From Aquificaceae bacterium (GTDB taxonomy: Bacteria > Aquificota > Aquificia > Aquificales > Aquificaceae), in the NCBI GenBank assembly GCA_037481935.1, contig JBBFKQ010000004.1, positions 1-64,000 on the forward strand: DNA of 64,000 nt, written 5' to 3'. Positions 3,500-48,028 of this stretch are shown here, piece by piece. Within the stretch, counting starts at the first letter, position 1, and each line of letters begins with the position of its first letter. Under the pieces are notes generated by a model. That model made no database searches. It had not been told where the DNA came from and saw only the letters and a list, made by a program, of their open reading frames with translations. The position numbers and the translations under genes are program-made.

Positions 3500-4585
3500 G
3501 TGAAAATACTGATTCTTACCGAAGGCTCTTCTCATATAGGCCACGGACACATCACTAGGTGTCTTTCCCTTTATGAAGCCTTCTCAGTATACGGTCAGAA
3601 GCCTTTTATGTTAGTGGCCGGAGACGGCTCGGTGGAGGGGGTTTTGAGAGGGGTAAACCATCGCATTTTTGACTGGCACGGGCGGTGGAAGGAGGTGAGG
3701 GATATCCTGAAAGACTATCACCTCGTTGTGGTTGACTCTTACATTGCGGGGAGAGAAATCTACGAAGACATATCCGGCTCTGCAAGGCTCGGGCTGTTCA
3801 TAGACGACTACAAAAGGCTTGATTACCCACCAGGTGTTGTGCTCAACGGCGGAGTTTACGCAGAAGAGCTCTGCTATCCCGAAAGGACTGGGGTCAGATA
3901 CCTTCTTGGACCAAAATACATACCCCTCAGAAGTGCCTTCTGGAAGATAGGGAAAAAAGCCATAAGAAAAAGGCTTAGAAGGGTTCTCATAACCTTTGGT
4001 GGGGACGACACCAGAAACATGACGCCACGGGTAGTCAATCTTCTTCTGGAAACCAGAAAAGACTTAGAGCTCTTTGTGGTTGTAGGCAAGGGCTTTGGCA
4101 ACAAAGATGGCATTTACAGGTTCAGGCATGAAGGGGTAAAGATTTTTGAAGGTCTGTCTGCGGAGGGTATGAGGGATATAATGCTTTCTGTGGACGTAGC
4201 CATAAGCGCCGGCGGTCAAACAACCTACGAGCTTGCAAGAACTGGCACGCCTACCATTCTCGTTGCGGTCGCCGAAAATCAACTTCTAAACTGCAAGGGC
4301 TGGGAAAAGCAGGGCTCTGCCCTCTACGCCGGCTGGTGGGAGGAGAAGGTGCTTATGGAGAACTTGCTTTCTGCCCTTAACAGGCTTGCGGACTGGAACT
4401 TGAGAAAAGAAATGTCCAGAAGGGGCAGGAGGCTGGTGGACGGCAGAGGTGCTCTGAGAGTTGCCAGAGAGCTTTTGAGAACATATGATTATAAACATGG
4501 AGCAAGCAGAGCTTCAAAAGAGCTATACCATAAGAACCTTCCACGACATAGTATCAGCCCTGAAAGAAAACCCGGCCTGGCTTGA
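3500..4585 (+). CDS. pseG: UDP-2,4-diacetamido-2,4,6-trideoxy-beta-L-altropyranose hydrolase
   Basis: A GT-B-fold hydrolase that removes UDP from the pseudaminic acid precursor, giving the free sugar used by PseI. The N-terminus has the PseG signature GSSHIGHGHITRCLSL (Gly-His-x-x-R), and the C-terminal half has ITFGGDD and SAGGQTTYELARTGTP, the nucleotide-binding loop. GTG is the only sensible start. The reading frame runs 89 bases past the ATG at 4497 of the next gene. The family normally ends near the VARELLRTY segment, so the last 25-30 residues look like read-through into the neighbour. It is the only pse gene on the plus strand; the rest of the pathway lies just downstream on the minus strand. 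Confidence 0.93.
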   Translation: MKILILTEGSSHIGHGHITRCLSLYEAFSVYGQKPFMLVAGDGSVEGVLRGVNHRIFDWHGRWKEVRDILKDYHLVVVDSYIAGREIYEDISGSARLGLFIDDYKRLDYPPGVVLNGGVYAEELCYPERTGVRYLLGPKYIPLRSAFWKIGKKAIRKRLRRVLITFGGDDTRNMTPRVVNLLLETRKDLELFVVVGKGFGNKDGIYRFRHEGVKIFEGLSAEGMRDIMLSVDVAISAGGQTTYELARTGTPTILVAVAENQLLNCKGWEKQGSALYAGWWEEKVLMENLLSALNRLADWNLRKEMSRRGRRLVDGRGALRVARELLRTYDYKHGASRASKELYHKNLPRHSISPERKPGLA

Positions 4586-5390
4586 AGAACTCAGAATGCT
4601 CATACTCACCACAGAGCTGGTTGAACTGCCAAAGAAGTTTGAAGAGTTTGCGAAAGAGGTCAGGGAAAGATTTGACAGACTGGAAAAGGAAGTTGCATAT
4701 CTAAAGGAAAAAAGCCAGAGCACGGAGCAGAAACTGGAAGAGGTCAAGAGTGATACTGAAAATCTAAAGACAAATATGGCAGTGGTGAAGGAGGATGTGG
4801 ATACTCTCAAAACCGATATGACTGTGGTAAGAAAGGATATAGAATTCCTAAAGGGGGAACTGCAAATTGTAAAAACTGACGTTGCGGAGCTCAAAGGGGA
4901 CAACCTTGAAAGGAAGGTAAGAGAGAGGGCCGGTGCTTATCTTGGCAGGCACTTCAGGTATTCGGAAGTTATAGACTTAAATGCCTTTGTGAGAAAACTT
5001 GACGAAGCAGAAGACAGTAGTATCATAACCGCAAAGGAAAGGGAAGATGCCCTTGAGCTTGACGCAGTGGTAAAGGCTAAAATAAAAGAAACAAGGCAGG
5101 ATGTTATGCTTGCCATAGAAGTATCTTACTCAGTTCACGCAGAGGATGCAGAAAGAGCCATGAGGGGAGCCCAAACCGTCCAGAAAGTCTACAACATGAC
5201 CACCCTGCCTGTAGTTATAGGCGTGAACGTGAGTAAAAACCCTTGCAGAAAAATACAGGGATGTGGTTTTTATAAAGCTCGCTCGCTCGCAGGATTAATC
5301 ATCCCCATCACGATAACATCTTTCCACCTGCCATCCTTGAACACAAACTCCCTGAGCCTGCCCTCCTCCACAAAGCCCATCCTTTTGTAA
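4485..5390 (+). CDS. Coiled-coil protein with PD-(D/E)XK nuclease-like domain, frameshifted at the 3' end
   Basis: Residues 20-55 form a helical DUF3782-type head, about 60-145 are a heptad coiled coil with repeated LKTDM/VVRKD-like units, and about 150-255 form a restriction-endonuclease-like core (ELDAVVKAK followed by MLAIEVSYS, where the usual ExK lysine is Ser). After Asn252 (5238-5240) the sequence stops looking like the family. In the +1 frame from 5242 it continues LAEKYRDVVFIKLARSQD and stops at 5298, a natural end. One extra base in the CCC at 5240-5242 explains this, so the real C-terminus is probably 5298 and the reading to 5390 is an artefact antisense to the next gene. Start may be 4485 or 4497. 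The function is unknown; a paralogue lies at 8820-9422. Confidence 0.6.
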   Translation: MIINMEQAELQKSYTIRTFHDIVSALKENPAWLEELRMLILTTELVELPKKFEEFAKEVRERFDRLEKEVAYLKEKSQSTEQKLEEVKSDTENLKTNMAVVKEDVDTLKTDMTVVRKDIEFLKGELQIVKTDVAELKGDNLERKVRERAGAYLGRHFRYSEVIDLNAFVRKLDEAEDSSIITAKEREDALELDAVVKAKIKETRQDVMLAIEVSYSVHAEDAERAMRGAQTVQKVYNMTTLPVVIGVNVSKNPCRKIQGCGFYKARSLAGLIIPITITSFHLPSLNTNSLSLPSSTKPILL

Positions 5391-6370
5391 AAATTTGTAG
5401 CCCTCTCGTTGTCCTCTATAACCTCCAGCTTGAGAGTGTGAAGTCCTGCCACCTCAAAGGCAAGACTTATGGCTGACCTTTCAAGAATCAGCCCCGCACC
5501 GTGTATCTTTTCCTCAGGGTTTGCGTAGATGCCAAAGTAGGCATTGCGGTTGTGAAGGTCCACTTTATTTAGATAAATGACACCGATTAACTTACCCTCT
5601 GAGCATACCAGATAGTAAAAGTTCCTTTTATCTCTTTTCAGGTTTTCTACAAACTCCTTGTGTTCCTCCACGCTTATTTCATGGTCCGTATACATCCACC
5701 TTCTAACCTCTGGATGGTTTCTCCACCTCCTGACCATCTCCCTCTCTTCTTCAGTCAGGTTCACAAAGTTTTTCAGAAGAACTTTTCCAAGCTCTATATC
5801 TCTCCTTAAGCTCTCTGATGGGCGTGTCCCATCCCTTTTCTCTGATGAAAGGTTCAAAGATTGCGTATTCTCTCCTGTAGTGCACTGACCCCCCCCGTGT
5901 TGCTTAAGTGGCTTGATTTCCATATTTTTTATTCTATCCCAGTTTTCTTTAAAAAGTTTCTGAATCTCTCTGTGAAGTTTCAGGTATGAGCTCCTGAGGG
6001 TTTCTTTTTCCTCATCAATGAAGACCTCCCTCTGCAGGAGAATGTCCCCTGTGTCCACGCCCTCGTCAACAAGGTGAATGGTAACCCCCTTGGGCGTATC
6101 CTCCAGAAAGCTCCAGACGTTGGGATACGCTCCCCTGTTGTAAGGCAAAAAGGATATATGCAGGTTTATTATCCTTGGACAGTATGCACGAACCACATCT
6201 CTGGGTATTATGTGCTTGTAGTTGTAGCTTATTATGAAGTCTGGGCTTATAGATTTCATATACTCAAGGTTCACCTGCTCTTCTGTGTATACTACATCCT
6301 CTACTATTTCTTTCAACCACTCAAAAAGCTCTAAGCTGTGCTGGTTTCCGCCAAGGAAAAGGATTTTCAT
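5270..6370 (-). CDS. pseH: Formyltransferase/PseH N-acetyltransferase fusion across a G8 tract
   Basis: Residues 1-158 are a methionyl-tRNA-formyltransferase-like sugar N-formyltransferase: NLHISFLPYNRGAYP carries the catalytic Asn and His, and GVTIHLVDEGVDTGDIL the Asp. Residues from about 195 to 360 are a GNAT acetyltransferase of the PseH type (start LGKVLLKNFVNLTEEE; acetyl-CoA segment NPEEKIHGAGLILE; ends FVFKDGRWKDVIVMGMI), which acetylates the 4-amino sugar made by PseC. The two parts meet at eight G residues (5889-5896). With six or nine G the first frame continues for 45 family-like residues (including HYRREYAI and EKGWDTPIREL) and stops at 5751, giving a separate protein of 205-206 residues. 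PseH would then need the TTG at 5857 or coupling. As written, it is one 366-residue protein. Confidence 0.85.
   Translation of the reverse strand: MKILFLGGNQHSLELFEWLKEIVEDVVYTEEQVNLEYMKSISPDFIISYNYKHIIPRDVVRAYCPRIINLHISFLPYNRGAYPNVWSFLEDTPKGVTIHLVDEGVDTGDILLQREVFIDEEKETLRSSYLKLHREIQKLFKENWDRIKNMEIKPLKQHGGGQCTTGENTQSLNLSSEKRDGTRPSESLRRDIELGKVLLKNFVNLTEEEREMVRRWRNHPEVRRWMYTDHEISVEEHKEFVENLKRDKRNFYYLVCSEGKLIGVIYLNKVDLHNRNAYFGIYANPEEKIHGAGLILERSAISLAFEVAGLHTLKLEVIEDNERATNFYKRMGFVEEGRLREFVFKDGRWKDVIVMGMINPASERAL
5889..5896 (-). repeat. Homopolymer of eight G (coding strand) at a domain junction
   Basis: Eight consecutive C on the plus strand read as G8 inside codons 159-161 of the formyltransferase/PseH gene. 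It is the exact point where the two enzyme domains change frame relative to each other, so its length sets whether they are fused (8), separate (6 or 9) or truncated after about ten residues (7). It may be a contingency tract or a sequencing error. Confidence 0.7.
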
Positions 6371-7056
6371 AGTATTTTCCTCACCAGTTTAAAGCCTTCA
6401 GCATATTCACAACCTACCTGCATGCCCCTCAATTTTGCTAAATATTCTATTCCTTCTATGGACCTTGGATGGGGGTATTGCCTCAATTCACTCCTGTAGC
6501 ATTGCATTGCCTCAATTTTCTTCCTGATGTGCTTCTCTGAAAGCGTAAAGTATGTGTCTGGTTGAAAACTGACTGGGTAAGCCCATTCTGTGGAGGATAG
6601 AACTTCACAGGAGTATATCTCTTTTACAGAACTACCCGGCTGAGGCCTCGTAGCCGTTAGCACGGCTCTGTAAGTTATCTGATGGTCTATGTTCAGGTCT
6701 CCTCCGTGATGGGTGAAAATTATTTCCGGTTTTATCTCCTCTATTACTTTTTCCACTGTTTTTACGATATCAAGCAAAGGGACGCTATCAAACCTGTTGT
6801 CCGGAAAATCACAGAATATTACTTTTTTAACACCCAGTAATCTGTTAGCCATTAAAGCATCTTCTCTGAGAGCTTCAAGCTCCACCTTTCTTGTCTTTGG
6901 CTCTCTTTTCTCATCCCTTGACGTTATACCTTCTCCAAGTATCAGAGTATAAACCTCATTGCCCTCTTCAGAAAACTTTGCAACTGTTCCCCCGCAACCG
7001 AGAACTTCATCGTCTGGATGTGCAATGATTAACAAAATACCTGAACTATGAGTCAT
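6367..7056 (-). CDS. PIG-L/LmbE family N-deacetylase
   Basis: A 229-residue zinc-dependent deacetylase of the LmbE/PIG-L fold, a family that removes N-acetyl groups from sugars. The first metal motif AHPDDEVLGCGGT (residues 13-25) and the second THHGGDLNIDH (about 116-126) are intact, with the expected His-x-x-Asp-Asp and His-x-x-x-Asp-x-x-His ligands. It overlaps the formyltransferase upstream by 11 bases and the formyltransferase/PseH gene downstream by four, so it sits between two formyltransferases. This suggests removal of an acetyl group before N-formylation of a pseudaminic-acid-type sugar. The substrate is inferred from position only. Confidence 0.85.
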   Translation of the reverse strand: MTHSSGILLIIAHPDDEVLGCGGTVAKFSEEGNEVYTLILGEGITSRDEKREPKTRKVELEALREDALMANRLLGVKKVIFCDFPDNRFDSVPLLDIVKTVEKVIEEIKPEIIFTHHGGDLNIDHQITYRAVLTATRPQPGSSVKEIYSCEVLSSTEWAYPVSFQPDTYFTLSEKHIRKKIEAMQCYRSELRQYPHPRSIEGIEYLAKLRGMQVGCEYAEGFKLVRKIL

Positions 7057-7744
7057 CTTCTATAACCTCAAACCTGCCTACTACTTTATCTACTTTTAGA
7101 ACTGCCTCAGTAAACTCTATTTTTAGTTTCCCCAATTTTATAAATGCCTTTGGATAATCTTCTGCATCAAGCATGCGTATAAAATCGTAGAAATCCTCTA
7201 AATTACTTATGTTCGCATCTAATATGTTGCTATTCTCTGGTTTTAGCCTTCTATATATGCTTCCTTTGCCTTCTTGCTTATAAGGCGTGATGTTACATTC
7301 AATAATTGTAGGTATCATGCTAAAGAAAATAATATTAGATATCTTTATAAACAACTCTTCTGCTGTGCCTAATTCCAACCAGATATCATGCTTTAAAAAG
7401 ATATCTCCTTCATCAATGCCCCCTGATATCCTAAAGGCTGTAATTTTTGTTCTATAAATTTTTCTAATTATATGGTTTTGTAAAGGGCTCCCGCCTCTGC
7501 CTTCAGGCAAATCTCCTATATGAAACCCTATGCAATTATATTTAGTGTATAGCCACTCTGGGATCATCCAAGACCAGTGCGGGAAGAATACATAATCTGG
7601 ATTAAGACTGTATAGCATATCTTCATTTAGGTCTTCAGGTTTTTCAACTATATGAGTTTGATATTTGTCTTTATATAAGTCTCTAAATCTTAAGGCATTT
7701 TTGACATTCCATCTTCTTATAGTAGCAATCAGAACCTTTTTCAT
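7046..7744 (-). CDS. Formyltransferase-fold protein (second copy), AT-rich
   Basis: A 232-residue formyltransferase-like protein. It keeps the core order of the family: NPDYVFFPHWSWMIP, then CIGFHIGDLPEGRGGSP where the catalytic Asn of the usual Asn-x-His is replaced (F-H-I), then ITAFRISGGIDEGDIFL with the Asp. The missing Asn makes the chemistry uncertain. The gene is visibly more AT-rich than its neighbours (many AAA, ATA, TTT codons) and has no clear ribosome site, which suggests separate acquisition. It lies between the glycosidase-like gene and the PIG-L deacetylase and overlaps the latter by 11 bases. Probably modifies an amino sugar for the flagellar glycan. Confidence 0.7.
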   Translation of the reverse strand: MKKVLIATIRRWNVKNALRFRDLYKDKYQTHIVEKPEDLNEDMLYSLNPDYVFFPHWSWMIPEWLYTKYNCIGFHIGDLPEGRGGSPLQNHIIRKIYRTKITAFRISGGIDEGDIFLKHDIWLELGTAEELFIKISNIIFFSMIPTIIECNITPYKQEGKGSIYRRLKPENSNILDANISNLEDFYDFIRMLDAEDYPKAFIKLGKLKIEFTEAVLKVDKVVGRFEVIEDDS

Positions 7745-7756
7745 AGTATATTTGTC

Positions 7757-8833
7757 TTATATAGTAGAGATATCTGCTTTTCCAACGCAAAACTTGTTCC
7801 ATTCTTCATAATCCTTTTCATACTCTCCATACCCATGGCTAAAGTTTGCACCCGAATAGTATACTATAAGCTCACCCGTATTTTTCATCAATGGCTGGTT
7901 AGCAGTAGTTATCATTCCACAATCCCACTCTCCTTCTTCTCCAAGGGGTATGATAGGCTCATCAGAGACAAGCTCCCATTTTCTGCAGTCTTTGCTATAA
8001 GCAAGGTAGACCTCAATCTTCCCGTCGTGGGTGCCTCTGGGTATCTCATGGTCTATCATAAAAAGCCACAGAAAACCAAGGTAGTGGTCTTTATAGTTAA
8101 AGGGGCACAGCCCATAAAAGTCTGCCCATTTGAAGCCTCTCTTCTGGGCTATTCTGTCCTCCCTTTCTAAGGGTATCCATACAGTCCTTGGTTTGCTCCA
8201 GTTGAGGAAGTCTTTGCTTGTGGACATGCCCACACACCGGCGGGTTCTTCCCTGTGGGTCTATCTTGTAGGTCTTTACCATAGCTCTGTAGACCTTCTTC
8301 TTTTCGTCATAAAAAACCGGTGCCACATCGCTATACCAGACCTTTCTGGTCTTTTTGTTGGGAAACTTGAGCAGAGGGATAACTGGGTTTTTATCGTATT
8401 CTACAAAGTTTATTCCATCCTTTGAAAAGACAACACAGTAGCCCCTGTCTGTGTAGCCAAAGAGCTTGTAGGGATACTCGTCCTCTGGTATGTATATCAC
8501 TGAGGGTATGTGGTAGTTTGCCACCACATTGCTCATACACTCCAGGGACTGGGTTTTGTGGTAGAAGTCAAGGACTTTGCCCTCCACCTCCACGGTGGGA
8601 TACAGATGGGGCAGGCTCTCTTTGAGGGGTCTTATGAGGGGCTTTTGCCAGTGGATACCATCGGTGGACTCCGCAAGGCATACAAAAAAGCCTATCCCAT
8701 CCACATAGCTCTGATAATACATCCTGAGCCTGTCGGGAAGCTCTATTACTGAGCCGTAAAGGTAGGTATGCTTTTCTTCCCATGGGTATTGGGGACACAG
8801 GACGGGTCTGGGGTATTTTTCAGCCCTGAGCAT
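7757..8833 (-). CDS. Glycoside hydrolase-like five-bladed beta-propeller protein
   Basis: A 358-residue protein with the repeated blade pattern of the GH43/GH32/GH130-type propellers: AESTDGIHWQKP, VFSKDGINFVEYDKNPV, GMSTSKDFLNWSKP and AYSKDCRKWELVSDEP, each an 'S-x-D-x-x-x-W' type turn. An acidic site of the expected kind is present (TDRGY, SDVAPVFYD, and GEEGEWDCGM near residue 310). ATG 8833 is chosen because GAGGAGG lies just upstream; the TTG twelve bases earlier overlaps that site. No signal peptide, so it is cytoplasmic. It sits inside the flagellin-glycan operon, so it may trim or rearrange an activated glycan, but the reaction is unknown. Confidence 0.7.
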   Translation of the reverse strand: MLRAEKYPRPVLCPQYPWEEKHTYLYGSVIELPDRLRMYYQSYVDGIGFFVCLAESTDGIHWQKPLIRPLKESLPHLYPTVEVEGKVLDFYHKTQSLECMSNVVANYHIPSVIYIPEDEYPYKLFGYTDRGYCVVFSKDGINFVEYDKNPVIPLLKFPNKKTRKVWYSDVAPVFYDEKKKVYRAMVKTYKIDPQGRTRRCVGMSTSKDFLNWSKPRTVWIPLEREDRIAQKRGFKWADFYGLCPFNYKDHYLGFLWLFMIDHEIPRGTHDGKIEVYLAYSKDCRKWELVSDEPIIPLGEEGEWDCGMITTANQPLMKNTGELIVYYSGANFSHGYGEYEKDYEEWNKFCVGKADISTI

Positions 8834-9422
8834 GCACCTCCTCAAAGTTCAGAATATCCATATACTCCCATTCCCTGAAAGCCATGGCGTAGATGCCTGC
8901 CTGAGACAGGAGCCTGATAAAACCCTCGCTGAAGCTAAGACTGCCCATGATGAGAATTAACTCTTTGTCCGCATACTCAGGGAAGTATTGCAAGAACCTT
9001 TTTGCCTTTTCTTTGAACTCCTCTATGTGCTTTTCTCTCGGTGTGGTCTTGACCTCAAGGAGAAAAACCTGCTTTTCACACACCGCAAAGGCGTCAAACT
9101 CTTCGTATATGCCCTTTTTTCTGTTTTCGTAAACCACCCTGAGATACGCCCTTTCAGGCTCACACTGGAAGTATTTCCTGACCACAGGCTTGAAAGCTGG
9201 AAATACAATATCCTCCACTATGGTTCCCATCTTATTCGCAATCTCACCCCAGCGTTTGTTTAATTCCCTTAGCTCTTTCCTGTGTTCCTCCCTATACTCC
9301 TCTATCTTGCGGTCTGTTTCTGCCGTATACCTTATAACCCATTTTTTAAAGTCCGCCATCTCTTCAATGAGGTATTCCATCAACCTCTCAAGCCTGTCAA
9401 CTCTTTCCTCTACCTTTTCCAT
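8820..9422 (-). CDS. Coiled-coil PD-(D/E)XK nuclease-like protein (DUF3782 type)
   Basis: A 200-residue protein with a coiled coil at about residues 1-65 and a restriction-endonuclease-like core. The core has EEFDAFAVCEKQVFLLEVK (about residues 105-125), which supplies the Asp and the Glu-x-Lys of the PD-(D/E)XK site, and a C-terminal strand-helix (ADKELILIMGSLSF). Unlike the paralogue at 4485 it keeps the active-site lysine and shows no frameshift. It overlaps the glycosidase-like gene start by 14 bases and follows the SpsF/aminotransferase gene, so it is co-transcribed with the glycan genes. The family is common in thermophiles, with no established role. Confidence 0.7.
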   Translation of the reverse strand: MEKVEERVDRLERLMEYLIEEMADFKKWVIRYTAETDRKIEEYREEHRKELRELNKRWGEIANKMGTIVEDIVFPAFKPVVRKYFQCEPERAYLRVVYENRKKGIYEEFDAFAVCEKQVFLLEVKTTPREKHIEEFKEKAKRFLQYFPEYADKELILIMGSLSFSEGFIRLLSQAGIYAMAFREWEYMDILNFEEVHAQG

Positions 9423-9452: not shown

Positions 9453-11486
9453 TCACATCCTTCTGAAAACGGGCTGTAGCAGTTGCCCCTCCAGTAGCTC
9501 CTCCACCATCTCATACTCCACCGCATACTTTACGATGTCAAGCACCTCGTCGTAGACCTTCAGAGTTCTCTCTATTACCTTGTCGTCGTGGGGCAGAGCC
9601 ATGTTGTGTCCGCCTGTAAAGAGCACTCCCCTTTTTGCACACTCCTGCTGAAAAAGTGTCTTGAGCTTCAGGCTCTCATCCCTGAAGTCCAATAAAAACC
9701 TGACCGGATAGCCCTTCGCATAGACAAGGCCCTCAAGTTCTTTCTCTTCTATGAGCTTCTGGATGCCCTCTTTGAGCTTCCGTCCCTGCTGCCACAGGTA
9801 GGGTATCACCTCGTGGTCTTTTAGATACTCTACGGTAGCCAGGGCTGACGCTATGCTTGCGGTCTCACCGCCAAAGGTAAAGGAAAAGAAAACCTCTTCA
9901 AAGAGCTCCATTATCTCAGCCCTGCCCACTACCGCAGATATGGGCATGCCGTTTCCCATGGCTTTTCCAAAGCAGGCAAGGTCTGGCACAACTCCAAAGT
10001 ATTCCTGAGCACCACCGAGGGAAAAGCGAAAGCCGGTAACCACCTCGTCAAAGATAAGAAGTGCTCCGTGCCTGTGGGTCAGCTCTCTGACCTTCTGCAG
10101 GAAGTCTCCCTCTGGCTCTTCTATGCCTACCGGCTCCATTATGACGCAGGCTATCTGGTCAGGGTATTCTTCAAAGAGTCTCTGGAGGCTCTGGAGGTTG
10201 TTGTATTCAAAGGTGAGAGTGAGCCTTTTTACTTCTTCTGGCACCCCTCTACTACGGGTGGTCGTGCCAATATACCAGTCCTGCCAGCCGTGATATCCAC
10301 AGCTGGCTATGTATTTCCTGCCGGTGTATGCCCTTGCAAGCCTGACCGCTGCGGAGGTGGCGTCAGAGCCGTTCTTTCCAAAGCGCGCCATTTCACAGCA
10401 TGGTATGACTTCTCTCAGAAGCTCTGCAAGCTCAGCCTCCAAGTAGCTCGGCAGTGTAAAGACCGTCCCCCTTCTCAGCTCCTTTTCAACCCTTTCCAGC
10501 ACTGGCTCAAAGGCATAGCCCAGGACGCACGCCCCCAGACCCATGGTGTAGTCTATGTAGGTGTTACCGTCAAGGTCTACCAGCTGACAGCCCTTCCCCT
10601 CCCTTACAAAGAGGGGCACTGCCCCCACAGAAAACTGAAGGTAGGACTTGCTAAAGGTCTGAGAGCAGTTAGGGACGAGCCTCTTTGTCCTCTCAAAGTG
10701 CCGAAGGCTTTCCTCAAGTTTTAACCTTCTTCCCTTCAGGCTTTTTATGAACTCCCTGTCCTCTCTCAGAGACCTGAGGTATCCCTCGTTAACAGGAATT
10801 TCTTTTTCTCTTTCAAGTAGTTCCGGTCTTTCCTTTATGAGCCTTACCACATCCCAGTATACAAAGTCCTCTCTCTGGAGGGCTGTGATTATCCTCTCTA
10901 TGACAATTAGGTCCTCCGGGTAGTCCAGGCTCAGGTGGATGTGAGAGAGGTCTTCTTCATGAAGCCTATAAAAGAGCCTTTTTGCCCTCTTTGATTTCCT
11001 TATGTAAGGGCTCACATGCTCTCTCTCTGAGGGCAGTTTTGCCTTCTGGTCTGCTCTAAGTATCCACTCCCCCTTTATGACCTCCACATCAAAGCCATTG
11101 ACTATGGCATTATAGGCGAAGTAATCAAGGTCTTCGTCCTTGTACAGCTCTACCGCCATATCAATAAGGTTGTGGTCTATAAGAGGGCAGTCCGCAGTCA
11201 CTCTAATTACCGTATCCAGTTCAAAGTTGGCGGTCGCCTGTGCGTATCTGCTGAGAACATCAATGGGATGTCCTCTAATAACTTCCCAGCCCTTGCATAC
11301 GCCTATCCTTTCTATTATGTCATCCTGCTCAAGCCACGAAGTGACAAGCACCCTGACATCTACCTTTGCCCTGCCAGCCCTTGAAAGAACCCAGTCCAGC
11401 ACAAGCCTTTCGTAAAGAAGCTGAATGCTTTTACGGGGATACCTACTTGAGCCATTCCTTGCCTGTATGACTAGCCCTACTCTCAT
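9453..11486 (-). CDS. SpsF-like cytidylyltransferase fused to class-III aminotransferase
   Basis: A 677-residue fusion. Residues 1-235 form an SpsF/COG1861 nucleotidyltransferase (VIQARNGSSRYPRKSI, then VIRVTADCPLIDH, then SEREHVSPYI). Residues about 275-660 are a PLP aminotransferase or aminomutase of the glutamate-1-semialdehyde type (LDGNTYIDYTMGLGA, FDEVVTGFRFSLGGAQ with the PLP Asp, FGKAMGNGMPISAVVG with the Schiff-base Lys, FTFGGETAS). The ATG at 11486 overlaps the PseC stop as ATGA; a longer in-frame start at 11519 lies inside pseC. It occupies the place where pseF (CMP-pseudaminate synthetase) is usually found, and no other cytidylyltransferase is in the locus. It may therefore activate the sugar while the second domain installs or shifts an amino group; this is inference. 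Confidence 0.85.
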   Translation of the reverse strand: MRVGLVIQARNGSSRYPRKSIQLLYERLVLDWVLSRAGRAKVDVRVLVTSWLEQDDIIERIGVCKGWEVIRGHPIDVLSRYAQATANFELDTVIRVTADCPLIDHNLIDMAVELYKDEDLDYFAYNAIVNGFDVEVIKGEWILRADQKAKLPSEREHVSPYIRKSKRAKRLFYRLHEEDLSHIHLSLDYPEDLIVIERIITALQREDFVYWDVVRLIKERPELLEREKEIPVNEGYLRSLREDREFIKSLKGRRLKLEESLRHFERTKRLVPNCSQTFSKSYLQFSVGAVPLFVREGKGCQLVDLDGNTYIDYTMGLGACVLGYAFEPVLERVEKELRRGTVFTLPSYLEAELAELLREVIPCCEMARFGKNGSDATSAAVRLARAYTGRKYIASCGYHGWQDWYIGTTTRSRGVPEEVKRLTLTFEYNNLQSLQRLFEEYPDQIACVIMEPVGIEEPEGDFLQKVRELTHRHGALLIFDEVVTGFRFSLGGAQEYFGVVPDLACFGKAMGNGMPISAVVGRAEIMELFEEVFFSFTFGGETASIASALATVEYLKDHEVIPYLWQQGRKLKEGIQKLIEEKELEGLVYAKGYPVRFLLDFRDESLKLKTLFQQECAKRGVLFTGGHNMALPHDDKVIERTLKVYDEVLDIVKYAVEYEMVEELLEGQLLQPVFRRM

Positions 11487-12589
11487 AACAGGACAAGTAT
11501 CACTTTCTCCACCACCCATTCCAGCTCTTCCTCCCTAAGTGCCGGATAGAGTGGTAGGCTCATGACCCTCTCGTAAAAGTCCTCTGCCACAGGGCATAGC
11601 CCCCTCCTGTAGCCAAGCCCTTCCATAAAGGGGTGCCAGTAGACGGGGATGTAGTGCACCTGCGCGCCTATGCCCTGAGCCCTGAGCTTTCTGAAGACCT
11701 CCCTTCTCCTTTCCTTTTCCCTGAGCCTTACAGGATACAGGTGGTAAGAATGAAGGGCATAGGGCTTTTCTGCAGGGAGACTTATGGCGTCAAAGTCTTT
11801 GAACTTTTCCCCGTAGAGCCTTGCCAGCTCTCTGCGTCTTCTGACAAAACCCTCTAACTTCCTGAGCTGAGATATGCCAAGGGCACACTGAAAGTCCGTT
11901 ATCCTGAAGTTAAAGGACGGAAACTCAACCCAGTATTCCCAGTCTTCGCCCCTGACTATGCCGTGGTTTCTGCACTGCATGAGCCTTCTGTATAGCCCTT
12001 CGTCGTTGGTGAGCACCGCGCCTCCTTCGCCTGTGGTTATGTGCTTGACAGGGTGGAAGCTAAAAACTGTCGCATGAGAGTATCTGCAGGAGCCCGTTTT
12101 ATGCCCCCTATACTCAGAGCCAAGGGCATGGCAGGCGTCTTCTACCACATAAAGCCCATACCTCTGAGCGACCTGCCAGACCTTTTCCATGTCCACGGGA
12201 TGCCCGGCGTAGTGAACTGGAACTATGAGCCTTGTCCTCTCCGTTATAAGGCTCTCCAGCAGGCTCACATCCATGTTTCCCGTGTCCCCTTCCACATCGC
12301 AGAATACGGGTCTTGCTCCCAGAAGAACCCCAGTGGAGACCGTTGCGGTAAAGGTTATGGGAGTGGTTATAAACTCATCACCCTCGCTCAGCCCTAGGGC
12401 TCTGTATACACAGTAAAGGGCAGAGGTGCCAGAGTTGAAGACAACCGCATATCTGGCTCCGCAGTAGCCAGCAAGGGCTTTTTCAAACTCTTCAATCTTT
12501 GGTCCCTGAGTGATAAAGTCAGACCTAAGGACCTCAAGCACCGCCTTTATGTCTTCTTCATCAATGAACTGCTTTCCGTAAGGTATCAT
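11483..12589 (-). CDS. pseC: UDP-4-amino-4,6-dideoxy-N-acetyl-beta-L-altrosamine transaminase
   Basis: A DegT/DnrJ/EryC1-family PLP aminotransferase of 368 residues. It converts the 4-keto product of PseB to the 4-amino sugar using glutamate. The N-terminus MIPYGKQFIDEEDI is characteristic of PseC, as are ITTPITFTATVS and the PLP lysine in SFHPVKHITTGEGG (about residues 178-191). It lies 65 bases after pseB and is translationally coupled to the SpsF/aminotransferase fusion. Orthology is supported by the pseB-pseC-pseG-pseI context. Confidence 0.95.
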   Translation of the reverse strand: MIPYGKQFIDEEDIKAVLEVLRSDFITQGPKIEEFEKALAGYCGARYAVVFNSGTSALYCVYRALGLSEGDEFITTPITFTATVSTGVLLGARPVFCDVEGDTGNMDVSLLESLITERTRLIVPVHYAGHPVDMEKVWQVAQRYGLYVVEDACHALGSEYRGHKTGSCRYSHATVFSFHPVKHITTGEGGAVLTNDEGLYRRLMQCRNHGIVRGEDWEYWVEFPSFNFRITDFQCALGISQLRKLEGFVRRRRELARLYGEKFKDFDAISLPAEKPYALHSYHLYPVRLREKERRREVFRKLRAQGIGAQVHYIPVYWHPFMEGLGYRRGLCPVAEDFYERVMSLPLYPALREEELEWVVEKVILVLL

Positions 12590-12654: not shown

Positions 12655-13680
12655 TTATGCCTCCACACCCTCAAGGGCCTTCTCCAGAAAAATCTTCAGC
12701 TCTTCTCCTTCCAGCCACCAGTCGTTTCTGTCGCTCCTGTAGAAAAAGCCCTCGGGCATTCTCGGGTATCTCTGCCACTTCTCAAGAGCTCTGGCTTCAA
12801 AGCTGAAATGAGGCAGTATGACAAAGTATTCTTTATCCTCGTGCCTTACGAGCCTTACATCCCTTGCTTCATCCTCTGATATTAGACTCTCGTGGAGCTT
12901 CTCTCCGGGTCTTATCCCAATAAACTTAAAACTACATTCCGGACACATGGCTTTTGCAAGGTCCACAATCCTGACACTGGGAATCTTTGGCACAAAAACC
13001 TCCCCGCCATCTGCTTCCTGAAGGGCAAAGAGCACGAGCCTGACGCCCTCTTCAAGGCTTATCCAGAAGCGAGTCATAGCGGGGTCTGTTATGGGCAGCT
13101 CCCTTGAGCTTTCAGACAGGAGCTTCAGAAAGAGGGGTATGACGCTTCCTCTGCTTCCCACCACGTTGCCATACCGGACTATGCTAAAGGAGGTTTCCTT
13201 TGCACCTGCATATGAATTGCCAGCAATCAGCAACTTTTCCATGGTGAGCTTTGTGGCACCGTAGAGGTTCACCGGGCTCACCGCCTTGTCGGTGGAGAGG
13301 GCTACAACCTTTTTGACCCCCTTTTCAATGGCGACCTCTATGATGTTCTGGGCACCTATTATGTTGGTCTTTACCGCCTCAAAGGGGTTGTATTCAAGTA
13401 TTGGCACATGCTTGAGGGCTGCTGCATGGACCACATAGTCCACACCGTCAAAGGCAAACCAGAGCCTGTCCTTATCTCTGATATCTCCCAGAAAGAACCT
13501 GAGCTGGGGATACTGGCTCTCTGGAAACTCTTTGCTCATCTGCCACTGCTTGAACTCGTCCCTGCTGAAGACGATTATCTTTTTGGGTCTGTGATGCCTG
13601 AGCACATACCTTATAAAAGCCCTTCCAAAGGAACCTGTTCCCCCGGTGATAAGGATTGTCTTTCCCTCCAGAAAGCTCAT
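12655..13680 (-). CDS. pseB: UDP-N-acetylglucosamine 4,6-dehydratase (inverting)
   Basis: A 341-residue extended short-chain dehydrogenase/reductase that starts the pseudaminic acid pathway: 4,6-dehydration and 5-epimerisation of UDP-GlcNAc. ILITGGTGSFGRAFIRYVL is the NADP-binding loop (residues 9-27). The FlaA1/PseB hallmark AALKHVPILEYNPFEAVKTN and the YGATKLTMEKL (Tyr-x-x-x-Lys) site are present. The start overlaps the pseI stop by four bases. Length and motifs are normal. Confidence 0.96.
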   Translation of the reverse strand: MSFLEGKTILITGGTGSFGRAFIRYVLRHHRPKKIIVFSRDEFKQWQMSKEFPESQYPQLRFFLGDIRDKDRLWFAFDGVDYVVHAAALKHVPILEYNPFEAVKTNIIGAQNIIEVAIEKGVKKVVALSTDKAVSPVNLYGATKLTMEKLLIAGNSYAGAKETSFSIVRYGNVVGSRGSVIPLFLKLLSESSRELPITDPAMTRFWISLEEGVRLVLFALQEADGGEVFVPKIPSVRIVDLAKAMCPECSFKFIGIRPGEKLHESLISEDEARDVRLVRHEDKEYFVILPHFSFEARALEKWQRYPRMPEGFFYRSDRNDWWLEGEELKIFLEKALEGVEA

Positions 13681-14720
13681 TCTATTAGCTCCCAGCTCAG
13701 GGGGGTGCCGGCAGGTATGTCAACCCTTGCCCTTCTTCCGAGGATTTCCTTCAGGTATCTGGGGTGAAGACCATAACCGGGTCGGACGCTCCGCACCTTC
13801 TCCTGAGTGAAAACCTCTCCAGCCTTGATGTCCTCTGCCACAAAGAGGCTCCTTGAGAACTTTCTCATCCTTTTCTGTTTTTCAGTTAGCTCGTAGCTCA
13901 CCTTTCCAAGAGCCTTCTCCACCTGCCTTATGGCTTCCACCATGGCTCTGAACTCTGCAGGCTCAAGGGAAAAGGCACTGTCAGGACCTCCAAGGCTTCT
14001 GTCCAGAATGAAATGCTTTTCCACCATCACCGCTCCAAGGGTAACGGCCGCCACAGGCACCGCAATCCCCAGCGTGTGGTCAGAAAGCCCCACGGGCACA
14101 CCAAAGGTCTCAATCATGTTGGGAATAGTCCTCAGGTTCGCATCTTCAAAGGGAGTGGGGTATTCAGACACACACTTGAGAAGGATTACCTGGTCGTTTC
14201 CGACCCTCCTGCATGCCTGCAGAGCCTCTTCTATGTCCGAGAGGGTGGCAATGCCTGTGGAGATTATGACCGGTTTTCCCTTGCTGGCAATGTATTCTAT
14301 GAGGGGTATGTCGGTTATCTCAAAGGATGCCACCTTGTAGGCGGGCGTTCCCAGCTCTTCAAGAAAGTCTACCGCGGTCCTGTCAAAGGGTGAGGAGAAG
14401 CATATTAGCCCCAGACTTCTTGCAAACTCAAAGAGCTTCTGGTGCCACTCCCATGGCGTGTAGGCTTTTTTATAAAGGTCATAAAGATACTGCCCATCCC
14501 ATAGCGTTCCCTCTCTTATCATGAAGTGTTCGTTTCTAATGTTCAGGGTTATGGTGTCTGGGGTGTAGGTCTGGAGCTTGACGGCGTCCGCACCCGACTC
14601 CTTTATGGCTTCTATGGTCTTCAGAGCCAGGTCAAGGTTCTGAAGGTGGTTGGCGGATAGCTCCGCAACTACAAAAACTGACTGGCCTTCACATATCTTT
14701 CTTTCTCCTATTTTCATCAT
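13677..14720 (-). CDS. pseI: Pseudaminic acid synthase
   Basis: A 347-residue NeuB-family aldolase-type enzyme that condenses the PseG product with phosphoenolpyruvate. The TIM-barrel part shows VVAELSANHLQNLDLAL, GADAVKLQTYTPDTIT and the sugar-binding FSSPFDRTAVDFLEELG. The C-terminal about 60 residues are an SAF (antifreeze-like) domain (SLFVAEDIKAGEVFTQEKVRS) that caps the active site in the dimer. ELSANHLQ rather than AEIGxNH-type spacing fits PseI more than NeuB. Two ATGs in tandem (14720 and 14717) overlap the maf stop; the first gives the usual ATGA overlap. Confidence 0.95.
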   Translation of the reverse strand: MMKIGERKICEGQSVFVVAELSANHLQNLDLALKTIEAIKESGADAVKLQTYTPDTITLNIRNEHFMIREGTLWDGQYLYDLYKKAYTPWEWHQKLFEFARSLGLICFSSPFDRTAVDFLEELGTPAYKVASFEITDIPLIEYIASKGKPVIISTGIATLSDIEEALQACRRVGNDQVILLKCVSEYPTPFEDANLRTIPNMIETFGVPVGLSDHTLGIAVPVAAVTLGAVMVEKHFILDRSLGGPDSAFSLEPAEFRAMVEAIRQVEKALGKVSYELTEKQKRMRKFSRSLFVAEDIKAGEVFTQEKVRSVRPGYGLHPRYLKEILGRRARVDIPAGTPLSWELIE

Positions 14721-45871: not shown

Positions 45872-46459
45872 TCAGGGTATACGAAGGTCTCTTGCGTATA
45901 TGTGGTAGCGCTTCTTTATGAGCTCGGGGTCTATACCCCTCTCCTTTGCCACCTCTTCGGCAGACCTGAGCTTGAGAAGGGCGTCAAAGACAGCCCTTAC
46001 CACATTGTTGGGGTTCGTGCTCCCTTGAAGTTTTGTGAGCACGTCCGTATAGCCTGCCAGCTCAAAGATGGGTTTTGCAGCGCCACCTGCCACAATACCT
46101 GTCCCCCGCCTTGCAGGTATAACCTTTATCATGGTGGGGCCGTAATGACCCACCACATCGTGGGGGACGGTTCCGTTTTCTATAGGGACCCTTATGAGGT
46201 GCTTTCTTCCATCCTCTATCGCCTTCGCAATGGCTATTGGCACTTCCCTCGCCTTTCCAAGTCCAAAACCCACAAAGCCTCTCTTGTCCCCTACTATAAC
46301 CAGAGCACTGAAGGAAAACCTCTTTCCACCCTTGGTTACCCTTGTGGTTCTCTTGGCGTATATGAGCCTTTCCTCTATCTGCAGCTGGTCCTCAAGCTCT
46401 GCTATTCTCTGGTCTCTTCTCTTATTGTCAATGAGCTTTTCAATTGATACACCACCCAT
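45872..46459 (-). CDS. rpsE: 30S ribosomal protein uS5
   Basis: A 195-residue uS5. The double-stranded-RNA-like N-terminal domain has TRVTKGGKRFSFSALVIVGD and GFVGFGLGKAREVPIAIAKA; the C-terminal domain has GTGIVAGGAAKPIFELAGYT. An N-terminal extension of about 25 charged residues precedes the fold. Involved in decoding fidelity. Confidence 0.97.
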   Translation of the reverse strand: MGGVSIEKLIDNKRRDQRIAELEDQLQIEERLIYAKRTTRVTKGGKRFSFSALVIVGDKRGFVGFGLGKAREVPIAIAKAIEDGRKHLIRVPIENGTVPHDVVGHYGPTMIKVIPARRGTGIVAGGAAKPIFELAGYTDVLTKLQGSTNPNNVVRAVFDALLKLRSAEEVAKERGIDPELIKKRYHIYARDLRIP

Positions 46460-46470
46460 ATCTGCCTCCT

Positions 46471-46848
46471 TTAGAATTCAAGACCAAGCTCTCTGCATTT
46501 ATCTGCAAAGGCCTTTATCTTTCCATGGTAAAGAAAACCACCTCTGTCAAAGACCACCTTTCTTATGCCCTTTTCCATAGCCTTCTTTACCAGTATCTCG
46601 GCCACTTTCTGCACATCCTCTATGGACTTTCCTCCTCTCTTACCGGCAAGCTGTAGGAACTCCGGGTCTATGGAAGAGGCAGAAACCAGCGTTCTTGACT
46701 GGCCCCCAGAGTCATCAATCAGCTGAGCGTAGAAGGCATTCAGGCTCCTGTAAACGCTGAGCCTTGGTCTTTCTGGAGTTCCCACGATTTTCTTTCTTAT
46801 CCTCTTGTGCCTTCTTTCTCGCTTTTCATGCCTGCCGAGCTTTGCCAT
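46471..46848 (-). CDS. rplR: 50S ribosomal protein uL18
   Basis: A 125-residue uL18, which binds 5S rRNA: basic N-terminus [40 protein letters not shown] and the C-terminal [20 protein letters not shown]. Eleven bases before rpsE. Confidence 0.96.
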
Positions 46849-46859
46849 AGCTTACCTCC

Positions 46860-47414
46860 TTACTTCTTGCCGCCTTTGCCCTTTCCTGCCGCCTTTCCAG
46901 CCTTGAGCCTGAGCACCTCACCCTCGTATCTTATGCCTTTGCCCTTGTATACGTTGGGTTTTCTGAAGGCCCTAATCTGGGCGCATACCTGCCCTACCCT
47001 TTCCTTGTTTATACCGCTGACGTATATTTTGTTTTCTTTTACCTCTATCCTTACGTCTGAAGGTATGGGATAAACCACAGGGTGTGAGAGTCCAAGGCTC
47101 AGCTCAAGGTTGTTTCCCTTGACTGCAGCTCTGTATCCAAGACCAACCACCTCAAGCACTTTTGTAAAGCCTTCGGTAACACCCTTTATCATATTTCTTA
47201 TGAGTGCAGCGGTTGTGCCGTGCATGGCCCTGTGAAAGGGCTGGTCAGAGGGTCTAGTTACCCTTACGGTGTTTCCCTCCAGACTGACCTCCATATCTGG
47301 ATGTAGCTTCATTGAAAGCTTGCCTTTAGGTCCTTCAACTCTGAGCTCACCATCCTGAAGGCTCACCTTAACACCCTGGGGGATTTCAATGGGTTTCTTG
47401 CCTATCCTTGACAT
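46860..47414 (-). CDS. rplF: 50S ribosomal protein uL6
   Basis: A 184-residue uL6 with two related domains: [20 protein letters not shown] and [20 protein letters not shown]. The binding motif near the end ([20 protein letters not shown]) is intact, and a Gly/Lys-rich tail follows. Confidence 0.97.
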
Positions 47415-47423
47415 GTCTGCACC

Positions 47424-47828
47424 TCACCATACATAGGCTAATATCTCCCCACCCTTGCCCAGCCTTCTGGCATCATGGTCTGTTATGAGACCTGAGTCGG
47501 TGGAGAGTATGGCTACGCCAAAACCCCTCTGAACGTGAGGGATTCTGTGCTTGGGAGTGTATATTCTCCTTCCAGGCTTTGAAACTTTCTGAAGCTCCGA
47601 TATGGCGTTCCTTTCCTTCTTGGGGTCAAGATACTTGAGATGAACCCTCAGTATATACTGGGTGCCCTTCTTACCCTCCTGGAGTCTTTCCCATCCTTTT
47701 ATGTAGCCTTCCTTCTTGAGAAGCTCAAGTATGGACTCTTTCAGCCTTGAAGAGGGGATGTCCACGTAATCCATCCTTCTCCTTATTGCGTTCTTTATGG
47801 CGGAGAACATGTCTGCCACTGGGTCCAT
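47424..47828 (-). CDS. rpsH: 30S ribosomal protein uS8
   Basis: A 134-residue uS8. DPVADMFSAIKNAIRRRMDY opens the protein and the RNA-binding C-terminal part has GFGVAILSTDSGLITDHDAR. In E. coli S8 represses the spc operon by binding its mRNA near rplE; no structure was verified here. Confidence 0.97.
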   Translation of the reverse strand: MDPVADMFSAIKNAIRRRMDYVDIPSSRLKESILELLKKEGYIKGWERLQEGKKGTQYILRVHLKYLDPKKERNAISELQKVSKPGRRIYTPKHRIPHVQRGFGVAILSTDSGLITDHDARRLGKGGEILAYVW

Positions 47829-47839
47829 ATCTTACCTCC

Positions 47840-48028
47840 TTACCAGCTGGACTTTTTAATGCCTGGAAGTTCGCCCTTTAGGGCGAGCTCCCTGAAACAC
47901 AGTCTACACATACCAAACTGTCTTATAAAGCCTCTTGGCCTGCCACAAAGAGGACATCTGTTCTTCTGCCGGACCGCATACTTGGGAAAATGCATTACAT
48001 CCTTTGCCACCTTTGCCTTTCTTGCCAT
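47840..48028 (-). CDS. rpsN: 30S ribosomal protein uS14, zinc-binding short form
   Basis: A 62-residue type-Z uS14: [20 protein letters not shown], then [20 protein letters not shown] with the C-x2-C-x12-C-x2-C zinc site. Start 48028 has AGGAGG just upstream. A longer in-frame start at 48094 lies inside rplE and is rejected. Confidence 0.95.

Follow-up and report, generated by a model that had tools for sequence, protein, structure and literature searches.

In the 64-kb stretch of DNA analysed here (the window, from genome G000 of a thermophile in the Aquificaceae, a relative of Hydrogenobacter), a run of exactly eight G holds a homologue of the formyltransferase PseJ and the acetyltransferase PseH in one reading frame, and the segment that follows the run is conserved as protein in another frame, that of the complete PseJ. 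The length of the run differs between related species, which suggests a genetic switch. Our leading explanation, offered tentatively, is a slipped-strand (contingency-type) switch at the pseJ/pseH overlap, acting between PseJ and PseH output. The features of the locus are:

5270-6370, minus strand: open reading frame (ORF) of 366 codons, composed of a formyltransferase core (residues 1-160), an out-of-frame linker (161-190) and PseH (approximately 193-355).
5889-5896, minus strand: the G8 tract, exactly eight G, read as codons GGG GGG GG(T) in the fusion frame.
5751-5888, minus strand: alternative-frame PseJ C-terminus, SVHYRREYAIFEPFIREKGWDTPIRELKERYRAWKSSSEKLCEPD, followed by TGA (5753-5751) and reached only when the tract is decoded as nine (or six) nucleotides.
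5808-5888, minus strand: 81 nt over which purifying selection acts on the PseJ frame and not on the fusion frame (G000 compared with G007).
5270-5799, minus strand: PseH coding region proper, where the selected frame switches, as aligned with the stand-alone PseH of G002 and others.

The initial annotation had claimed that eight G at the junction keep the formyltransferase and PseH in one frame, and frame arithmetic confirms it: G8 gives a fusion of 366 amino acids, and five G, which the annotation did not mention, gives one of 365. Its further claims, that one G more or two fewer restore the formyltransferase C-terminus with a stop at 5751 and that seven G truncate the protein, are borne out as well. 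G9 and G6 yield a free formyltransferase of 206 and 205 amino acids, respectively, ending in ...HYRREYAIFEPFIREKGWDTPIRELKERYRAWKSSSEKLCEPD at the TGA of 5753-5751, and G7 and G10 lead to a stop after 171 and 172 amino acids. In a nine-nucleotide reading, the GGG of the PseJ motif QHGGGSxH would come from the tract. At the peptide level, HYRREYAIFEPF... belongs to the full PseJ, and DGTRPSESLR is an example of a fusion linker peptide. The tract is the sole G/C run of at least seven within the 64-kb window. Long G runs are avoided there, with two overlapping G7 matches seen against approximately 17 predicted from dinucleotide shuffles, and G8 occurs at four sites in the entire 1.69-Mb genome.

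Regarding the identity of the formyltransferase, which the annotation had left at the family level, the 366-codon ORF matches PF00551 at residues 31-138, and its core is 81% identical to the orthologue of G013. This 206-aa orthologue shows full-chain homology to PseJ in both sequence and fold: phmmer aligns it to PseJ of Anoxybacillus kamchatkensis (6ci2) at 3.5e-49, and the first-ranked Foldseek match is 6ci4 (E 4.5e-19, 188 columns, 47% identity). The identity to the A. kamchatkensis enzyme (PDB 6ci2, 6ci4, 6ci5, 6edk) extends over the whole fold, including the C-terminal QxxGGSxH. The active-site residues N69, H71 and D106 (NLH, DTG), invariant in the family alignment, are present in the window protein, whereas the C-terminal motif QxGxGSxH and the helices that follow it are present in the alternative frame and missing from SxH onwards in the G8-encoded protein. 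On these comparisons the window formyltransferase is a PseJ homologue, predicted to formylate a UDP-amino sugar. The title of 6ci4 describes a crystal soaked with UDP-4-amino-4,6-dideoxy-L-A..., an amino sugar that we take, from the known pathway and the PseH reaction given for NCBIfam TIGR03585, to be the substrate acetylated by PseH. Because the nucleotide sugar would be shared, PseJ and PseH are probably rivals for a single amine. In the phmmer alignment the PDB chain consists of PseJ alone, as a separate protein, whereas here pseJ overlaps pseH and its frame is set by a G tract.

PseH itself is assigned with confidence, as residues 200-355 match the equivalog model TIGR03585 with 180.8 bits against a cut-off of 93.1. 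When the whole fusion was used as the query, this genome gave one PseJ and one PseH, both inside the 366-codon ORF. The locus is surrounded in the window by pseI, pseC, a pseF-like gene and a pseG-like gene, of which the following bear on the pathway:

3500-4585, plus strand: PseG-like UDP-sugar hydrolase (TIGR03590, 141.4 bits, just under the cut-off of 153.55), the next step of the pseudaminic acid pathway.
6367-7056, minus strand: PIG-L family deacetylase, whose stop overlaps the PseJ start, in the same operon.
11483-12589, minus strand: PseC aminotransferase (TIGR03588, 468.5 bits against a cut-off of 423.5), which makes the amino sugar acylated by PseH/PseJ.
13677-14720, minus strand: PseI pseudaminic acid synthase (TIGR03586, 531.3 bits against a cut-off of 340.25).

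The pathway neighbours of PseJ in other genomes are the same as for the A. kamchatkensis PseJ system. In three genomes of other phyla or classes, the PseJ homologue comes after pseG. In L035, of the Nitrospirae, and in L069, a more distantly related member of the Aquificota, pseI is on its other side; L070 is the third, and in the stretches read beside these three homologues there is no pseH.

A further comparison concerns which frame is under selection. G000 and G007, both fused as assembled, differ at 15 of the 81 nucleotides after the tract, and 11 of the 15 differences fall at third positions of the PseJ frame. In that frame they cause two amino-acid changes, where shuffling of the substitutions predicts 9.7 (no shuffle among 5,000 went as low, P<0.0002); in the fusion frame the same 81 nt have 12 changes against 9.3 expected. 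Nei-Gojobori omega is 0.043 for the PseJ frame versus 1.9 for the fusion frame, in a small sample of three sequences and 27 codons; synonymous sites between G000 and G007 are near saturation. Over the next 54 nt the pattern is reversed, with conservation now in the PseH frame (P 0.025 and 0.006). The formyltransferase C-terminus that had been noticed in the other frame is thus a real, selected protein segment by both omega and the shuffle test. Such conservation in two fused assemblies indicates that, over most of the period since G000 and G007 separated, PseJ has been translated through to its full C-terminus, and by the same measures the fusion linker is not selected as protein.

Among the members of the genus searched, only three have PseJ, and the tract differs in each at the homologous position. 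It is G8 in G000 (CACGGGGGGGGTCAG, fused), G7C in the complete genome of G007 (CATGGGGGGGCTCAA, fused, 368 aa) and G9 in the complete genome of G013 (CATGGGGGGGGGTCAA), where the genes are split into a 206-aa PseJ and a PseH overlapping it in another frame. The gene structure therefore changes as the tract lengths predict, in a comparison of three species of one genus with one genome per species rather than of strains. The initial annotation had held that relatives with only six or nine G, or a fusion conserved without a G run, would speak against a variable tract; neither pattern is seen, as one relative has nine G and another is fused with G7C. Two properties of a contingency locus are found here: a surface-glycan gene whose reading frame depends on the length of a homopolymeric tract, with arrival of the sugar at the surface predicted from the pathway, and a tract length that differs among related genomes together with the coding arrangement. 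The G9 is the sole G run of at least eight in the 1.69-Mb genome of G013, and GGG is the rarest glycine codon in all three genomes (16% in G000, 13% in G007 and 11% in the small G013 sample). In more distant PseJ genes the motif QxGxGSxH has K or E in the middle and there is no G run; the tract thus seems confined to this lineage, which has Gly at the middle position. One scan of the genome contigs revealed no further fused or tract-bearing locus. G007 also has a run of 16 G approximately 50 bp upstream of gapA (C1:402013-402028; L049:1501-1516), a candidate promoter-spacing switch or assembly artefact; as a conserved switch it was rejected, being absent from the other genus members inspected.

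The fusion costs PseJ its last ~45 residues. The PseJ family alignment shows no variation at Q157, G161 or H164; the fusion retains the first two and loses H164 and everything beyond, including two helices predicted in the 206-aa protein at 166-176 and 185-203. In a model of the fusion, residues 158-182 are disordered (pLDDT below 50) and the PseH part is mostly confident. We infer that the fused PseJ is impaired. Could the fusion nevertheless be a genuine bifunctional enzyme, with the out-of-frame segment as its linker? The frame is long and open in two species, the PseJ catalytic residues N69, H71 and D106 and the entire PseH domain are kept, and LgrA (F-A domains) and ArnA likewise carry a PseJ-like or related formyltransferase domain within a larger polypeptide. 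However, the LgrA alignment runs through its QxxGGTxH motif, whereas the fusion here breaks inside the motif and its linker is not selected. The linker's omega of 1.9-2.1 beside a conserved alternative frame, the loss of invariant H164 and the C-terminal helices, and the split genes of G013 make such an enzyme very improbable. Taken together, the selection pattern and the lost residues argue that the fusion, rather than a settled bifunctional enzyme, is of recent origin, reversible, bypassed through slippage in decoding, or an error. Ruling against a long-standing bifunctional enzyme leaves reversible switching, decoding slippage, and error or recent mutation. Of these, decoding slippage seems the least likely: the length in the DNA would not vary from G8 (or G7C), and some full-length PseJ would be made beside the fusion, either through slipping of RNA polymerase or through ribosomes shifting by -1 on GGG GGG GGT, giving both activities from one allele. 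The frame reached by a -1 shift on the run is precisely the selected PseJ frame, and selection on that frame persists though two long-separated genomes are fused. There is precedent on a seven-G run, in that low-level decoding shifts are described for herpesvirus thymidine kinase mRNA in work cited by PMC5009743. Nevertheless, downstream RNA structure is not in excess in this genome (z 0.27), and a stimulatory structure for frameshifting was looked for there and rejected. The hairpin of G007 is unusual (z -4.65) but starts within the run of G and is not common to the orthologues. The DNA of G013 already carries the PseJ frame, which means that the recoding arrangement is not a conserved one; a slippery site with a stimulatory RNA element was not found across the orthologues, which have no shared downstream structure. 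In addition, PMC1088944 documents bacterial transcriptional slippage mainly on A/T runs.

A somewhat more plausible alternative, still rather unlikely in our view, is that the normal run is nine nucleotides, that pseJ and pseH are ordinary overlapping genes, and that the fusion is an assembly error or isolated recent mutation, here and separately in G007. The strong purifying selection on the PseJ frame through the region fits this explanation. Frameshifts relative to homologues do occur, with about one more for every ~140 kb of coding sequence compared in each genome (~46,000-48,000 aligned residues, from 400-kb samples each of G000 and G007). The others found were one in each genome, at a CCCC site in G000 and in the PIG-L gene just upstream of pseJ in G007, so that in G007 the neighbouring gene carries a second one-base frameshift. 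Against it, the three other G8 runs of G000 all lie in intact ORFs, and G8 is not generally miscounted; assembly error is disfavoured for this reason. Two of these genes we take from their sequence to be plsX and hisF, well-known conserved genes, and all three, the third being one further gene, were rejected as further switches. A net loss of one base is seen at the same place in two genomes, and G007 has no other clear frameshift in the ~145 kb compared, the PIG-L gene apart. It is unlikely that two otherwise clean assemblies each lost one base independently at the same tract, and widespread homopolymer error was dismissed on the low frameshift rates in 400 kb of each genome. The two frameshifts are located at C2 ~210801-210860 of G000 (L098:15801-15860), where a conserved gene is frameshifted near the CCCC run relative to G007, and at L005:820-1050 of G007, where the PIG-L gene, intact in the window (6367-7056), is shifted by one base near an A6GGG run.

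The slipped-strand switch is accordingly a provisional first choice ahead of error or recent mutation, and then of slippage. With nine G, as in G013, PseJ would be complete and PseH would have to start internally; with G8, as here, or G7C, as in G007, PseH would be read as the C-terminal half of the fusion from the pseJ start. Because both enzymes would act on the same 4-amino group of UDP-4-amino-4,6-dideoxy-L-AltNAc, a one-base change would shift pseudaminic acid between its 7-N-formyl and 7-N-acetyl forms. The choice between formylation and acetylation of a flagellin-type sugar, named in the initial annotation, is thus the right axis, since PseJ and PseH share a substrate. We infer that the change would be reversible in the population, that the fusion would lack PseJ activity and keep that of PseH, and that the sugar would change with it. 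In its full form, with tract slippage alternating full-length PseJ (formylation) and fused PseH (acetylation) and thereby giving chemically different pseudaminic acids among cells of a thermophile, the proposal is possible but doubtful. With nine G the start options for PseH in G000 are a poorly placed TTG at 5857, without a well-placed ribosome-binding site and the only start nearer the tract than the next, and ATA at 5797, a possible rare start 4 nt after AAGGAG. G013 has an ATG in the PseH frame at the tract edge with no Shine-Dalgarno sequence before it. Given such poor starts, the fused state may be the better PseH-expressing state. The same lack of a convincing start and ribosome-binding site for stand-alone PseH in the G9 state also counts against a switch, as does the one-base frameshift in the PIG-L gene beside pseJ in G007, where local decay or error is possible. 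Runs of seven to nine G are, moreover, at the short end for contingency loci and hypermutable tracts.

The nearest parallel is the flagellin glycosylation locus of Campylobacter jejuni, where the homopolymeric tract of Cj1295 controls flagellin pseudaminic acid structure (PMC3068675). As here, a poly-G tract lies in a gene of a pseudaminic acid locus, and a one-base change alters the frame, in that case with an effect on sugar structure. The Campylobacter gene is turned on or off, whereas here the tract would choose between two enzymes for one amine by splitting or fusing them, in an Aquificota host, with a shorter run and from single genomes. The locus also resembles the frame-transition genes of GeneTack (PMC3711429), in which ORFs overlap or are fused at a repeat and which are classed as phase variation, recoding or coupling; the running text of that paper mentions neither acetyltransferase nor Hydrogenobacter. 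A literature search for phase variation in Aquificales found no relevant report. If the switch is real, one base pair would choose between two modifications of one sugar instead of merely switching a gene off, and hot-spring chemolithotrophs would join the organisms with contingency loci. Immune evasion cannot then be the driver in such organisms, and the likely reason would lie in phage or attachment pressure.

Several other genes of the window were observed around the locus. Directly upstream of pseJ, a second formyltransferase-like protein (7046-7744, minus strand, Formyl_trans_C_2) adjoins the PIG-L deacetylase, and the two could deacetylate and then formylate another sugar amine. The operon also encodes a 362-aa protein without a Pfam match (7757-8845, minus strand). 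Inside the pseudaminic acid cluster, a PseF-like cytidylyltransferase (CTP_transf_3) is fused to a class III aminotransferase resembling PRK06209 (9453-11519, minus strand). On the opposite strand, the 3' end of a coiled-coil ORF (4485-5390, plus strand) extends approximately 120 nt antisense into pseH, and its C-terminus is unlike those of the G007 and G013 homologues (242 aa).
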